64,000 nt of DNA. Origin: Rhodoglobus vestalii. GTDB taxonomy: Bacteria > Actinomycetota > Actinomycetes > Actinomycetales > Microbacteriaceae. The DNA lies in assembly GCF_006788895.1 (NCBI RefSeq), contig NZ_VFRA01000001.1:1736001-1800000 (forward strand). The letters are read 5' to 3'. Position 1 is the stretch's first letter, and every line of letters begins with the position of its first letter. Shown here piece by piece: positions 38,084-43,725 of the stretch. Made by a program: the position numbers and the translations under genes. Below the pieces are notes generated by a model. The model ran no database searches. It was not told where the DNA came from and worked only from the letters and a program-made list of their open reading frames with translations.

Positions 38084-38350
38084 TTAGAGTTTTCTGTAAA
38101 CCTCGCGACGGTGCGCAACCTCAACAATAAGGATCAATATCTGGTCGTCATCAATGTTGGTGAGGATCCGATAATCACCGACTCGGTAGCGCCAGAATTC
38201 ATCATTCACAAGCTTCTTACCGAGAAGGCGCGGGTTATCAAGCTGCGCGAGCTTCTGCTCAAGAAAACCACGGATACGCTTCGCTGCCGCAGGATCAAGT
38301 TTTCCAACCTGTTTCGCTGCTTTCGGAGTGAACCTGATCGTGTAGCTCAC
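38084..38350 (-). CDS. RelE/ParE-family toxin (second TA pair)
   Basis: 88 residues: MSYTIRFTPKAAKQVGKLDP, then FWRYRVGDYRILTNIDDDQI and VEVAHRREVYRKL, the conserved RelE C-terminal block. The start overlaps the antitoxin stop by 4 bp. It is not closely similar to the first toxin (3961-4224), so the two pairs are independent acquisitions. Confidence 0.87.
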   Translation of the reverse strand: MSYTIRFTPKAAKQVGKLDPAAAKRIRGFLEQKLAQLDNPRLLGKKLVNDEFWRYRVGDYRILTNIDDDQILILIVEVAHRREVYRKL

Positions 38351-38565
38351 GCAGGCCAGATCACGTCTTCAAGATCGATAGCATCGTCATTTGATTGAGT
38401 GAATTCCTCCAACGCATCTTTCGCCAGAAGGTAGTCCTCATTCTCGTCCAGATACTGCGTCAATGCCTCGGTCGCATAGAACGTCTTCGATCTTCCCGTG
38501 CGTGAAGACAGGTACTGCAGGCGGTGCTCCGTCTCGTCATCAACGCGAAGATTGATTTGTGGCAT
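38347..38565 (-). CDS. ribbon-helix-helix (RelB/DUF6290-type) antitoxin
   Basis: 72 residues from ATG 38565 with AGGAGG upstream. MPQINLRVDDETEHRLQYLS then RTGRSKTFYATEALTQYLDE is a ribbon-helix-helix DNA-binding unit; the acidic tail (SNDDAIDLEDVIWPA) should wrap the toxin. A perfect palindrome lies 15 bp upstream of the start (38581-38600), the expected operator. Confidence 0.85.
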   Translation of the reverse strand: MPQINLRVDDETEHRLQYLSSRTGRSKTFYATEALTQYLDENEDYLLAKDALEEFTQSNDDAIDLEDVIWPA

Positions 38566-38667: not shown

Positions 38668-39102
38668 TCAGTGGATGGCAGCGAGGCTTGCGAGCGTTTG
38701 CGCGACGGCGTCAGCTAATTCTCGGCCTTTGACCGCGAAGTGGCGCTCGAAGTAGTCTACGTGCTCCTGATGACCGTGGAAGTGATGCGGAGTCAACACG
38801 GCCGAGAACACCGGCACCTCGGTCTCCAACTGCACGCGCATTAGCGCGTCGACCACTGTCGACGCCACGAAGTCATGTCGGTAGATTCCCCCGTCCGCCA
38901 CGAGCGCACAGGCAGCGATAGCGTCGTAGCTGCCAGAGCGCGCAAGTCGCTGGATGTGCAGAGGGATTTCGAATGCACCCGGAACCCGGACGACGTCCAC
39001 ATCGCCGATCCCGACGTCCCGGAGGCGATCTGTGAATGCTTCGACGGCCCGTTCGACGATTTCCGAGTGCCATTGCGCGGCAACGATTACGACACTAGAC
39101 AT
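38668..39102 (-). CDS. ribH: type II lumazine synthase (RibH2)
   Basis: 144 residues. Ligand-site VPGAFEIPLHIQRLARSG and the signature DGGIYRHDFVASTVVDALMR then VQLETEVPVFSAVLTPHHFH match the type II enzyme known from Brucella and Mesorhizobium RibH2, not the usual actinobacterial RibH (which has GTxHFEYV). Condenses 5-amino-6-ribitylaminouracil with 3,4-dihydroxy-2-butanone 4-phosphate to 6,7-dimethyl-8-ribityllumazine. No other rib gene is nearby. An FMN riboswitch precedes it, confirming its place in flavin supply. Confidence 0.88.
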   Translation of the reverse strand: MSSVVIVAAQWHSEIVERAVEAFTDRLRDVGIGDVDVVRVPGAFEIPLHIQRLARSGSYDAIAACALVADGGIYRHDFVASTVVDALMRVQLETEVPVFSAVLTPHHFHGHQEHVDYFERHFAVKGRELADAVAQTLASLAAIH

Positions 39103-39118
39103 AGTGATTGCTCCTCCC

Positions 39119-39253
39119 GTCCTCTCTCATCCGGACTATAACCGTCGGCCCCGGAATCACACCGGGTCAGCACCCCCACAGTGGAGACACTCGCGGGCTT
39201 ACACGGATTCGCCGCGACACCGCCGGTGGGGAATCTCACCCCGCCCTGAGGAC
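39119..39253 (-). ncRNA. FMN riboswitch (RFN element)
   Basis: Minus strand: P1 arms GTCCTC (39248-39253) and GAGGAC (39119-39124) close the core. Between them are AGGGCGGGGTGAGATTCCCC, ACCGGCGGT, AGCCCGCGAG, GACCCGGTGTGATTCCGGGG, CCGACGGT and AGTCCGGATGAGAGAGG, the conserved RFN segments in order. FMN binding should reduce expression of the ribH2 gene whose ATG is 17 bp downstream; GGGAGGAG is the ribosome site just after P1. Confidence 0.96.
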
Positions 39254-39499
39254 GTACAAATGAGATATTACCAGCGCCAGCAGTGCGGTCAGGGTTGCAA
39301 CGTAGACGGTCGCTGGCCGCCATGTAAGGGAGCACGCGAGACTTACATCACAACGGCTTTTCACTTTCGCCCCAGGGGAAACCTTTAGCGGGGCGCATCG
39401 AGGATCGTGAGCTTTTATGGATCCGCCACTAACGAACACTTCGTTGCTTTGATGGCCCGCAAGCTGAGCCTCCTGCTCGGCTTGCCCTCTTATGAGGAG

Positions 39500-40833: not shown

Positions 40834-41340
40834 ATCTGCCGGTTGTCCCGTCACCCGCTAAACAAGATTCGTATCGCGCAAGCGTGGCCCGATTGCAGCC
40901 AGAGGCGCCCGTAAGTGGGACGGCGTTCGAATACTTCCGTACCGTGATTGAGGCCTGAGCCGCCGACTGGATTGCGATGTCGCGGATAGCCTGCCCGCAT
41001 GGAATTGTCACTCAGGTGCGTCAAGTGCAACACTTTGCGGATTCGGCCTGACGGGTTCTGGCGGGCCGCCTCTCGTGGGCAAATCGGAGCCGGCTCAACG
41101 CGTTGTTCTTGACAACACACCTGTTCAGATAGATATCGTCGCCGGGTGGAGGGCGGCCGAACCAGACGCGATCAGAAGCGCCGCCACCGAAAACCCATAC
41201 GACCTTGCCACTGACACAGACGCAAAGCCCGACGGGCCCCTAAGCCCCTCACATTCTCCGGCTGACATCAACACATCGGACGGCGCACACGCCCGCGACT
41301 TGGTCTATACGGACCGCTTCCCGGCTGTTTTGTTAGGGAC
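40834..41340. other. non-coding stretch before the DprA leader
   Basis: The frame from 41075 is open into dprA, but its first 147 codons lack family resemblance and are better read as non-coding leader. No RNA gene was recognised before 41341. Confidence 0.55.
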
Positions 41341-41491
41341 TTTTTTGTCTGTCTGGCCGGTCATCGTAGTTCGCTTCGTGCCTCTCTTTGCGGGCTTTCG
41401 CGGCATATCCTCACTGCGTTCCGGTATTCCACGACCCTTCACTGCCGGCACTTTCGCTCTCAATCGATTCTCTTGCCAGACAGGCAAAAAA
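41341..41491 (+). ncRNA. stem-closed structured leader of the DprA gene (candidate)
   Basis: TTTTTTGTCTGTCTGGC (41341-41357) pairs with GCCAGACAGGCAAAAAA (41475-41491) along 17 bp if one G-U pair is allowed, closing a 117-nt interior. The interior has further GC-rich complementary pieces (for example TGCGGGC/GGCA and TGCCGGCA). GGAAGAGAGAA (41501-41511) and ATG 41516 follow. The leader of the DUF3560 gene has the same plan (42879-43077). Not a motif I recognise. Confidence 0.5.
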
Positions 41492-41515
41492 TCAGTTGAG
41501 GGAAGAGAGAACCCC

Positions 41516-42289
41516 ATGACTACCATTACTAGCAGCACCCTTGATAGCATTCACCAGCAGCACCACGGCCTCACGCTGGACACCCTCGCCCGCGTCGCGC
41601 TGTCCTCGATGAGCGAACCGGGAGATGGCGACATTGGGCGGCTCGTGGCAACCCTGATCACCCCCGAGCATCCACACTGGCCCACCCGCATGAACGATCT
41701 GGGCATAAACGCCCCGTTCGCACTGTGGGTGCGTGGCAACAGCGAGATCCTGATCGACGATAAGACCACGGCCATCGTCGGAGCCCGAGCCGCCACCGGC
41801 TACGGGGAACACATCACCATGGAAATTACTGCCGGGCTTGTCGAGCGCGGCCACACTATCGCTTCAGGTGCCGCGTATGGCATTGATGGGATGGCTCACC
41901 GGGCGGCGCTTGCCTCCGGTGGTCGTACTATCGCCTACCTTGCCGGAGGGGTCGACAGGTTCTACCCGTCAGGTCACGACGCACTCCTTGGTCGAATTGT
42001 TGAGCATGGCGTGGTGGTATCCGAGCTACCGTGCGGGGCCATGCCGACCCGGTGGCGTTTCCTGCAACGCAACCGACTGATAGCCGCCAACAGCGCCACC
42101 GTGGTCGTCACCGAGGCAGGGTGGCGTTCCGGATCGTTGAACACCGCGAGCCACGCCGCCGCCCTCGGCCGTCCAGTTGGCGCGGTGCCGGGACCGGTCA
42201 CCAGCGCGGCATCCGCCGGATGCCACCGCCTCATCCGGGAGAGCCGCGCCACCCTCATCACCAACACCGAGGAAGCTGCCACACTCTAA
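41516..42289 (+). CDS. short DprA/Smf-like protein, mobile-element type
   Basis: 257 residues from ATG 41516, strong purine ribosome site GGAAGAGAGAA. The Rossmann/SLOG core is complete: TAIVGARAATGYGEHITMEI, TIASGAAYGIDGMAHRAALA, YLAGGVDRFYPSGHDALLGR, PTRWRFLQRNRLIAANSATV, VTEAGWRSGSLNTASHAAAL. There is no C-terminal winged helix and only a short head, unlike the chromosomal DprA that loads RecA. Short forms like this travel on plasmids and integrative elements; the adjacent DUF3560 remnant agrees. DNA binding is likely, exact role open. Confidence 0.82.
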   Translation: MTTITSSTLDSIHQQHHGLTLDTLARVALSSMSEPGDGDIGRLVATLITPEHPHWPTRMNDLGINAPFALWVRGNSEILIDDKTTAIVGARAATGYGEHITMEITAGLVERGHTIASGAAYGIDGMAHRAALASGGRTIAYLAGGVDRFYPSGHDALLGRIVEHGVVVSELPCGAMPTRWRFLQRNRLIAANSATVVVTEAGWRSGSLNTASHAAALGRPVGAVPGPVTSAASAGCHRLIRESRATLITNTEEAATL

Positions 42290-42293
42290 CCAC

Positions 42294-42323
42294 GGTGGGC
42301 CGACCCAGCAGGGCCGGCCCACC
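42294..42323 (+). terminator. GC-rich hairpin after dprA
   Basis: GGTGGGCCG (42294-42302) and CGGCCCACC (42315-42323), 9-bp perfect stem, 12-nt loop, starting 4 bp after the stop. No T tract follows. Confidence 0.5.
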
Positions 42324-42362
42324 CCCCTAAGCAAGACAGAGACGCCAAACACAGACGGTCGA

Positions 42363-42382
42363 GGATCCCGTGCACGGGATCC
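42363..42382. repeat. perfect 20-bp palindrome
   Basis: GGATCCCGTGCACGGGATCC reads the same on both strands. Followed by another hairpin GGCCGGGC/GCCCGGCC at 42450-42471. Both are in the 210-bp non-coding gap after dprA. Confidence 0.85.
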
Positions 42383-42499
42383 GGCAGTTGCAAGCGATAC
42401 CGATGCTCTCACCGATGGCTTGCAGCTCAATACCCAGCTCGAGTCTGCAGGCCGGGCACCGAGGCCCGGCCCACCCGAAACCGCGTTCAACCTGGAGAT

Positions 42500-42646
42500 G
42501 TGAAGAGCCCCGAGAGGGAGGGTGACATCGTCAACGCTGCGCCGACCGAGCATGACGCGCTCGACTGGTCCACTTTGGGTGAGGCGAAATCCTTGGACTT
42601 GGCTGATCATGAGTATCGCGCGCTTCTCAATAAAGTCCTGAGTTGA
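42500..42646 (+). CDS. small hypothetical protein (48 aa)
   Basis: GTG 42500, preceded by CTGGAG, encodes VKSPEREGDIVNAAPTEHDA then LDWSTLGEAKSLDLADHEYR and ends LLNKVLS. It is charged, soluble and without a recognised family. It follows dprA in the mobile remnant and may be a small element protein or a fragment. Confidence 0.35.
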   Translation: MKSPEREGDIVNAAPTEHDALDWSTLGEAKSLDLADHEYRALLNKVLS

Positions 42647-42878
42647 GTTCGGCGGTTAAGTGGGACCACGAATCGCTCTCACGATCGGCTTGGGTCGTCG
42701 CATCACTGAAGGTTTCTCTTACGGACGATCGTGTCCCGAAGACGACTGCTGAAGTCTTTGCAACCGACTCTTGAGGATGACGTGGACTTATCCGTTGGGG
42801 TATGGCTCAAATAGGCACAATAAGAAGCAAAGGTCGACGGCGTAACGCCGCAGTTTCCCTGGTGAGCTGGCGCTCACG

Positions 42879-43077
42879 TTTTTGCCAAAGCGCTCTGCGA
42901 GCGATTTTACGGTCGGCTTTGCTCCACACAAGCGGCTTGCAGCCGCCTGCTCCTCCGAAGATTTTTTGTACGCGGTCGCAAGCTCCCTTATTTCGCACCA
43001 AAATTCTTCGCCCCGCAGTCCTACGGGTTGTGTTCCGCTTCACCTCCCATCGGCACGAAGCGCCGCTTTGGCAAAAA
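42879..43077 (+). ncRNA. stem-closed structured leader of the DUF3560 gene (candidate)
   Basis: TTTTTGCCAAAGCG (42879-42892) is exactly complementary to CGCTTTGGCAAAAA (43064-43077). Interior hairpin GCGGCT-TGC-AGCCGC at 42932-42946; hairpins CGGCG-TAA-CGCCG (42838-42850) and GTGAGC-TGGC-GCTCAC (42862-42877) stand just in front. GGAAGAGAGAA (43083-43093) and ATG 43101 follow. Same plan as the DprA leader. Confidence 0.5.
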
Positions 43078-43100
43078 AACGTGGAAGAGAGAAGAAGAAC

Positions 43101-43725
43101 ATGCTGACAATCACCCACACACACGAAGCCGGAACCATGGTTGAGGGCACAGTGCGCGGAGATGGAACGGCCGAAATCTTGAAGGCTCAGCGCTGGCGCT
43201 GGGGGCGTAGCATCGCGGCGTGGTTTGTGCCGCAGAGCCGCGACCGCCTGCCGAAGTGGCACACCATCAACGCCGCCGCCACAGCATTACGCGCGGCAGG
43301 GTTCGAGGTCGCAACAGAAATTGACGAGGCCACCCGATCCACCGCCGAAGTAGAGGCGGGAAAAATTGAGCGCCAAGAACAGCGCGCGGGCGCGCTTGAT
43401 TCCAAGGCCGACCGCAAAGCCACAGCCGCAGACCAGGCACAGGCGCGTGCAGACCGTCGCTAACCGCATCAAAAAGTTGGAAGCAGACACCCGACGCACT
43501 CAGCGCCACATCACCGGCAAGCGCGAATGGATCACCAACGATGCCGGGCAAAGTGCGTTCAGTGCCGAACCAATCGCAGCTACCGGTGCCTATCTTGACC
43601 GCCTCACCATTCTGCTGGCTGAGCAGCAAGACCAGCTGACCTACTGGCTGCAAGTTCGCGCTGACCAGATCGCCGGAGGCACCGCCACCAACTACAGCCG
43701 CGAAACAATCAGCAAGGGCCACTAG
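43101..43725 (+). pseudogene. DUF3560 mobile-element protein, internal deletion
   Basis: From ATG 43101, MLTITHTHEAGTMVEGTVRG then WRWGRSIAAWFVPQSRDRLP is the DUF3560 N-terminus, continuing to ATAADQAQARADRR and a stop at 43461-43463. The family's C-terminal part (TVANRIKKLEADTRRTQRHI, DRLTILLAEQQDQLTYWLQV) continues in another frame to the TAG at 43723-43725. The central segment normally between them (the IPFGQPILVGHHSE-like region) is missing. An out-of-frame deletion at about 43450 explains this. DUF3560 genes travel with plasmid and ICE modules; function unknown. Confidence 0.75.

Follow-up and report, generated by a model that had tools for sequence, protein, structure and literature searches.

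The two leaders described here lie in a window of 64,000 nucleotides from Rhodoglobus vestalii (contig NZ_VFRA01000001.1, positions 1,736,001 to 1,800,000; "the window" means this whole analysed stretch), one ahead of a DprA-family gene and the other ahead of a broken DUF3560-type gene. They appear to be remnants of a plasmid-borne hairpin element, judging from their sequence relatives. This element is carried on one DNA strand by plasmids of several phyla and by some filamentous-phage-like sequences, where it probably serves gene expression upon single-stranded entry. We propose, with moderate confidence, that the family to which the leaders belong acts as single-stranded-DNA promoter or priming sites. 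The conclusion that the selected fold is that of the DNA of the template strand is held considerably more firmly, at the level of the family. The features of the two leaders and their genes are as follows.

41341-41357, plus strand: 5' closing arm of leader 1 (T-run), TTTTTTGTCTGTCTGGC, read directly; pairs with 41475-41491 and covaries in 19 aligned leaders
41399-41433, folded strand minus: module-B core of leader 1, pattern CGCGGCATATCCT..GGTATTCCACG on the plus strand; sole match in the window, with cross-phylum relatives
41475-41491, plus strand: 3' closing arm of leader 1 (A-run), GCCAGACAGGCAAAAAA, read directly
41501-41511, plus strand: shared word GGAAGAGAGAA, Shine-Dalgarno region of leader 1, read directly; ATG at 41516
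41516-42289, plus strand: DprA-family gene, 257 amino acids (PF02481, E 2.7e-65)
42879-42892, plus strand: 5' closing arm of leader 2, TTTTTGCCAAAGCG, read directly
42971-42996, folded strand minus: module-A core of leader 2 (CGCGGTCGCAAGCTCCCTTATTTCGC on the plus strand), matched in genomes of the order and by BLASTN in plasmids
43064-43077, plus strand: 3' closing arm of leader 2, CGCTTTGGCAAAAA, read directly
43083-43093, plus strand: shared word GGAAGAGAGAA, Shine-Dalgarno region of leader 2, read directly; ATG at 43101
43101-43463, plus strand: start of the DUF3560-type gene, the copy being broken after 43463

Direct reading bears out the paired outer arms, the common word and the start codons that the first-pass annotation had reported. 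The outer arms of leader 1 form 17 pairs, one of them T.G, and all 14 positions pair in leader 2; the word common to both serves as their Shine-Dalgarno region. Folding of both whole leaders exceeds chance, with z values against dinucleotide shuffles (RNA parameters) of -4.2 on the sense strand and -4.8 on the complement for leader 1, and of -2.7 and -3.5 for leader 2 (a separate fold, of 41341-41475, excludes the 3' arm and is not informative on the whole of leader 1). In their inner halves the two leaders carry different modules. Strand asymmetry in these two copies is not significant alone (zdiff of -0.05 and -0.79 for leaders 1 and 2 with RNA parameters, -1.0 and +1.1 with DNA parameters), and the apex of leader 1 on the minus strand shows a GCA triloop in ACGCAGT, short of the full GCGNAGC discussed below. 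Concerning the gene names, DprA is confirmed by Pfam; the name DUF3560 is taken from annotated copies on plasmids that are similar at the DNA level (82% over 64% of the query in the best record), and a Pfam search of the broken second protein of the window gave no DUF3560 match.

The annotation had also rightly assigned both leaders to a mobile remnant. BLASTN with leader 1 revealed relatives at the DNA level on plasmids of Cryobacterium, Mycetocola, Microbacterium, Herbiconiux and Clavibacter, and a record often held several of them; such broad searches also gave many short matches elsewhere. We read 14 actinobacterial plasmid stretches and scanned them for stems ending before a Shine-Dalgarno sequence and a start codon, G.T and A.C being scored alike. 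The same plan was found in 31 further elements, distributed over 11 of the 14 stretches with 1 to 5 elements per plasmid; no leader reached the scan threshold in the other three (L004, L006, L011). Together with the two window leaders these elements make the set of 33 leaders used below. The choice was made by eye: a stem was kept if it had an A-run arm and resembled the family, and the rest were dropped, including the near misses L002 17145, L003 10480, L007 29896 and L014 37533. The arms vary among plasmid leaders (CAGACAGGC, CTTCACGGC, CACCAAGGG and others) yet pair. The leaders precede establishment-type genes (ParB-like, ArdC, DprA, DUF3846, glutaredoxin/NrdH) and small genes without a name; genes for single-stranded-DNA-binding protein (SSB), ParA, DUF3560 and methylases are found in the same blocks. 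Up to five copies occur on one plasmid, each ahead of its own gene. In the genome of R. vestalii itself, a second remnant (G000:C1:1230815-1232413, L189 6816-8414) contains two leaders in tandem, whose arms are the same as those of leader 2, TTTTTGCCAAAGCG and CGCTTTGGCAAAAA, and beside them an open DUF3560-type frame of 337 amino acids, related to the broken copy of the window.

In most leaders the closing stem encloses one of two cores, module A or module B. Among 297 genomes of the order, that of R. vestalii being one, 5 contained the exact form of module A; BLASTN also matched module A in plasmids. The exact module-B pattern at 41399-41433 has no second match in the window and none in 100 shuffled windows. 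BLASTN with module B matched 297 of 72,556 plasmid records, including plasmids of Burkholderia, Pseudomonas, Vibrio, Arsenophonus and Geobacillus as well as 2.6-kb plasmids of Salmonella and Shigella; 8 of the 297 records are from Escherichia. Genome contigs contain the exact pattern in at least 118 stretches, the matches listed belonging to three phyla (Actinomycetota, Pseudomonadota and Bacillota, with many Lachnospiraceae), and uncultured viral contigs contain it in 27 stretches. Two individual occurrences are a module B upstream of the MobV relaxase gene of an E. coli IncF plasmid (L020 6001-6071) and one in a RepL plasmid of Salmonella that is 2.6 kb long and MOBV-typed (L021 942-988).

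The strand that carries the fold was deduced from several lines of evidence. The complement of the mRNA strand was lower in energy in all 33 leaders with RNA parameters and in 32 of 33 with DNA parameters, and composition accounts for part of this raw difference. Compared with dinucleotide shuffles, the complement had the lower z in 29 of 33 leaders (RNA) and 27 of 33 (DNA), many of these leaders being related and not independent. The stems flanking module B (101 clusters from 187 sites) show, on the mRNA-sense strand, 65 A.C against 8 G.T oppositions, where 56% A.C is expected from composition (p 6.5e-10, pairs treated as independent); by source, the ratio was 9:0 in plasmid clusters, 46:7 in genome clusters and 10:1 in viral clusters. 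A looser gapped alignment pointed in the same direction, more weakly (94:69, 358:233 and 58:27). A symmetric count on pairs common to both folds gave 21 A.C to 11 G.T in 22 leader representatives, again weaker than 65:8, and 4:3 in 9 representatives of the relaxase-proximal cores considered below. In the 19 of 33 leaders that were aligned, the consensus of the folded strand reached -37.7 kcal/mol with 35 pairs, 13 of them with double changes, and that of the other strand -24.5 kcal/mol with 24 pairs, 9 of them with double changes. In pBCJ2315, a Burkholderia plasmid, the complement folds into a very long and rarely interrupted hairpin that spans the core and the gene start (zdiff of a 286-nt segment, -3.3 with RNA and -4.1 with DNA parameters).

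The apex of the hairpin gives further information on its nature. Of the 101 clusters, 57 have GCGNAGC at the apex of the folded strand and none has it on the other strand; in shuffled inserts the frequency is 2%. All four bases occur at N of the GNA triloops (GCA 29, GAA 11, GGA 8 and GTA 5 of 101). By source, the motif was found at 21 of 28 plasmid sites, 81 of 136 genome sites and 6 of 27 viral sites. GNA loops closed by two G-C pairs are described, in the part of the source consulted, as extraordinarily stable mini-hairpins, a statement that concerns DNA (PMC4686876).

These data bear on the nature of the selected molecule. The closing-stem covariation, with double changes at 13 of 35 consensus pairs, agrees with the first-pass annotation that the element is structured and under selection. 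The annotation had further read it as a cis-regulatory RNA in the mRNA leader, which we consider the least probable of the readings weighed here: the fold is selected at the family level on the opposite, template strand, with a DNA-type apical loop there, and the RNA reading is therefore unsupported. In its favor, the mRNA-sense strand, too, is more stable than its shuffles (mean z -3.6 over the 33 leaders) and keeps its 24 consensus pairs with 9 double changes, and EGeRS1, a comparable element of the Bacillus plasmid pLS20, is reported to block read-through in its native orientation (PMC8708921, part consulted). However, wobble pairs, consensus energy and apical loop all favor the other strand, and most viral contigs have the fold on the coding strand with no common gene start downstream. 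Also, the Rfam search that the annotation had proposed was run and gave 0 matches at E 1 over positions 41250-43150, which speaks against a riboswitch or other known RNA; with the Burkholderia copy, only sub-threshold microRNA and cloverleaf matches appeared, which we take as hairpin noise. An intrinsic terminator was rejected because the order of the arms, T-run 5' and A-run 3', is the reverse of that of a terminator.

Sigma70-like -35/-10 boxes were sought on both strands of the 33 leaders, where the best scores stayed at the level of shuffles and none of the 33 reached a score of 9, as for a signal that is silent in double-stranded DNA. An antisense non-coding RNA transcribed from the template-strand side would have the very sequence that folds. 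We nevertheless judge it highly improbable: no sigma70-like promoter exceeds chance on that strand, GNA mini-hairpins are described for DNA in the source consulted, and the folded strand is the sense strand in most viral contigs.

The position of the core relative to genes is regular on plasmids. Of 16 plasmid clusters, 12 had a start codon with a Shine-Dalgarno sequence in the 15-200 nt behind the core, at 76-106 nt (median 83.5), and 5 had one in front of it (these counts exclude every site that is 420 nt or less from the end of a contig). In genome clusters a start was found behind the core in 34 of 59 (median 85 nt) and in front in 12 of 59, and in viral clusters behind in 3 of 10 and in front in 3 of 10. 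The fixed distance from core to start suggests that the start of the RNA is set by the core.

In the uncultured viral contigs, more open reading frame (ORF) length runs opposite to the module-B pattern in 21 of 27, and ORFs with a Walker-A motif do so in 13 of 13 cases, in 13 of the 27 contigs, some of which are near-identical. Ten Walker-A ORFs were scanned: eight belong to the Zot family, one is a terminase and one is unnamed. With this ORF orientation, the fold of the viral contigs therefore lies mostly on the coding strand. In filamentous phages, the coding strand is the virion strand. Such a distribution is compatible with second-strand priming sites only (ssi/sso), at which the host would prime the complementary strand and the position before genes would be secondary; on the Zot-bearing contigs a gene start is no more frequent behind the core than in front, and module B lies beside a MobV gene of an E. 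coli plasmid and in the 2.6-kb MOBV-typed RepL plasmid. We regard priming alone as unlikely, since on plasmids the gene start keeps to 76-106 nt, the Shine-Dalgarno sequence follows the closing stem, and as many as five copies per plasmid each stand before a gene of their own.

Transfer direction was approached through the relaxase. Among 49 genomes reached through their loci, 30 had a PF03432 relaxase, and in 45 pairs a core and a relaxase shared a contig at a distance of up to 60 kb. Of the 25 distal cores, those lying upstream of the relaxase by more than 2 kb, 22 were on the same strand as the relaxase (14 genomes), and so were 5 of 5 downstream cores; leaders and annotated relaxase were co-oriented in all five actinobacterial stretches having both (L001, L003, L005, L007, L012). 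Distal cores would therefore fold on the template strand of the relaxase, the predicted transferred strand. The relaxase template strand is also the strand reported nicked in pLS20, in the part of PMC5313138 consulted.

Thus, we favor the following scheme, which remains a proposal built on sequence comparison. The element would act when the template strand of the downstream gene is single-stranded, for example when this strand enters a cell by conjugation. The template strand would then fold to a hairpin, closed by the T-run and A-run arms and with module A or B at its apex, at which host machinery, most likely RNA polymerase, would start an RNA extending through the Shine-Dalgarno region into the gene. 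The same RNA could also prime second-strand synthesis. Conversion to double strand would remove the signal, and expression would then be early and transient. Distal elements are expected to fold on the incoming strand, which would be the template of the genes behind them, and this would explain the gene content, the strand, the DNA loop and the failure to detect a sigma70 promoter.

Several observations weigh against this scheme. The 15 proximal cores, defined by a distance of less than 2 kb and located 0.87-1.39 kb upstream of the relaxase in 8 genomes (L169-L183), are opposite to the relaxase in 15 of 15 cases, and an ORF starts 10-420 nt behind 14 of them; where readable, they precede glutaredoxin or small helix-turn-helix-like genes. 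They keep GCGNAGC in 15 of 15 and have no clear strand asymmetry (A.C 5 and G.T 1 in short stems, mixed zdiff). Four of the 15 come from one assembly, labelled Vibrio cholerae 35D. Lachnospiraceae-type genomes (G025, G032) account for the three distal exceptions. EGeRS1 shares the layout of the leaders and the template-strand fold, but is reported on a template strand that is not transferred: the part of PMC8708921 consulted gives the transferred strand of pLS20 as the non-template strand for EGeRS1 genes. The distal scheme explains neither the proximal elements nor EGeRS1, and a reading confined to the transferred strand is weakened by both. Either these elements act on DNA that is double-stranded or freshly synthesized, or being the template strand counts for more than being the transferred one. 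This genome adds two further points, since the window core alone showed no extra stability against shuffles (z +0.78), and a search of this genome for a relaxase, which covered PF03432 only, found none, so that the transferred strand cannot be assigned here. No -35/-10 boxes were found in the hairpins either. The MOBP nic consensus is YATCCTG; when words of this type were sought upstream of mobC in 6 plasmids, just two YATCCCG words appeared, both reading into mobC, and they do not prove which strand is transferred. As to phages, GCGNAGC is scarce at the viral sites, and in 6 of the 27 viral contigs it is the strand of the pattern that has the greater ORF length. When 50,697 named phage records were searched with four module-B queries, three of them phage-contig cores, no filamentous phage was matched, which slightly weakens both the single-strand promoter reading and the shared start code considered below; the queries matched one microvirus (77-79%) and one unannotated 1.9-kb E. 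coli record. The microvirus match (L168 2501-2562) is weak (79%, E 2e-4) and has the pattern on the coding strand, and it was found again with three other queries.

Two observations were made by the way. The relaxase regions of contigs from the assembly labelled Vibrio cholerae 35D (L087, L101, G045) resemble those of actinobacterial plasmids, and the DNA is probably mixed. Before mobC, within about 130 nt, L001, L003, L004 and L005 have a conserved GAGCAAGCTATA and an inverted repeat, seen by eye, which are likely the origin of transfer (oriT); L006 and L012 have the variant GTAGCAAGCATA in place of GAGCAAGCTATA.

The orientation of the proximal cores and of EGeRS1 would be accommodated by a template-strand hairpin promoter that is extruded from supercoiled double-stranded DNA, whatever the direction of transfer. 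The promoters of the phage N4 virion RNA polymerase are a precedent for such extruded hairpins. The fold would then follow the template strand even where this strand is not the transferred one, with the GNA-type loop on it. This reading seems to us rather improbable, as the part of PMC8708921 consulted reports no promoter activity of EGeRS1-B at a chromosomal locus in either orientation, and the coding-strand position of the fold in Zot-bearing viral contigs also speaks against it.

Beyond the proposed single-strand promoter or priming site, a more general hypothesis is put forward tentatively. The folded-DNA signal CGTGGAATACC-(GNA mini-hairpin)-AGGATATGCCGCG may be read by conserved bacterial machinery in at least three phyla, as a promoter and/or primer start on the single-stranded DNA of conjugative and mobilizable plasmids and of filamentous-phage-like elements. 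It would be a shared start code of single-stranded DNA on its entry, which anti-defence genes exploit.

Elsewhere in the window, the sole Rfam match is a flavin mononucleotide (FMN) riboswitch on the minus strand (39115-39257, 115 bits), outside the leaders. It lies just upstream of an ORF at 38668-39102 that resembles, by reading only, the riboflavin synthase beta subunit. Two small overlapping ORFs on the minus strand at 38084-38565 resemble, again by reading only, a RelBE-type toxin-antitoxin pair.

Strand-specific hairpins that the host reads on the single-stranded form are known from the sso of rolling-circle plasmids and the complementary-strand origins of filamentous phages. Compared with these by description only, the plasmid elements reported here differ in being mostly coupled to a gene start, and the module-B queries matched no named filamentous phage. 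The CUP elements of IncN plasmids are conserved repeats upstream of leading-region genes and, by description only, share with the present family this location of repeats. In the open-licence literature we found nothing fitting for such an element in Actinobacteria or for one common to phages; the plasmid and bacterial occurrences of the core letters that were checked in open-licence papers are primers or a CRISPR spacer, the others being judged by title.

EGeRS1 of pLS20 and related Bacillus plasmids is described, in the part of the source consulted, as present in several copies per plasmid before establishment genes, including ardC (PMC8708921). Like the present elements, it has inverted repeats with T-run and A-run ends directly before the Shine-Dalgarno sequence (pLS20, L195 28008-38432), and multiple structured copies precede the Shine-Dalgarno sites of establishment genes of one plasmid. 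Its five near-identical copies fold better on the template strand (zdiff of -4.5 to -5.7 with DNA and -0.3 to -1.0 with RNA parameters). It differs in length, with 400-600 bp against 150-210 here. In the 49 of 66 kb of pLS20 that were searched, module A was absent with up to 7 mismatches allowed, and module B gave one poor match with 4 and 3 mismatches.

Characterized single-stranded promoters are those of F, ColIb-P9 and pESBL, and two scans start from five known sequences and candidates derived from them, as far as the consulted parts of the sources show (PMC11541004, PMC12826799). The Frpo/ssi elements of these plasmids, as described in the parts consulted (PMC11541004, PMC7736820), resemble the present family in that repeats precede leading-region genes for SSB, anti-restriction and methylases, and that a hairpin forms on the template strand, deduced here from energy, wobble pairs, consensus and loop. 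Early expression from the transferred single strand, shown or proposed there, is predicted here. The differences are that no sigma70 -35/-10 was found in the stem here; that the core differs as far as seen, which was judged from the 8 Escherichia among the 297 plasmid records and not from Frpo sequences; and that the present family extends to three phyla, Zot-bearing viral contigs and a MOBV plasmid. An assignment to Frpo by promoter boxes is unsupported, sigma70 boxes being absent above chance, and because the strand evidence is also split we do not claim membership. The best reading, by analogy, is that the element works like Frpo/ssi and forms a separate, cross-phylum family. With a core that hardly varies across three phyla, such a separate element would offer a sequence-based route to the early-entry genes of mobile elements, those of actinobacteria and others. 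If the reading is true, it would also open to experiment the way in which host polymerases initiate on single-stranded DNA.

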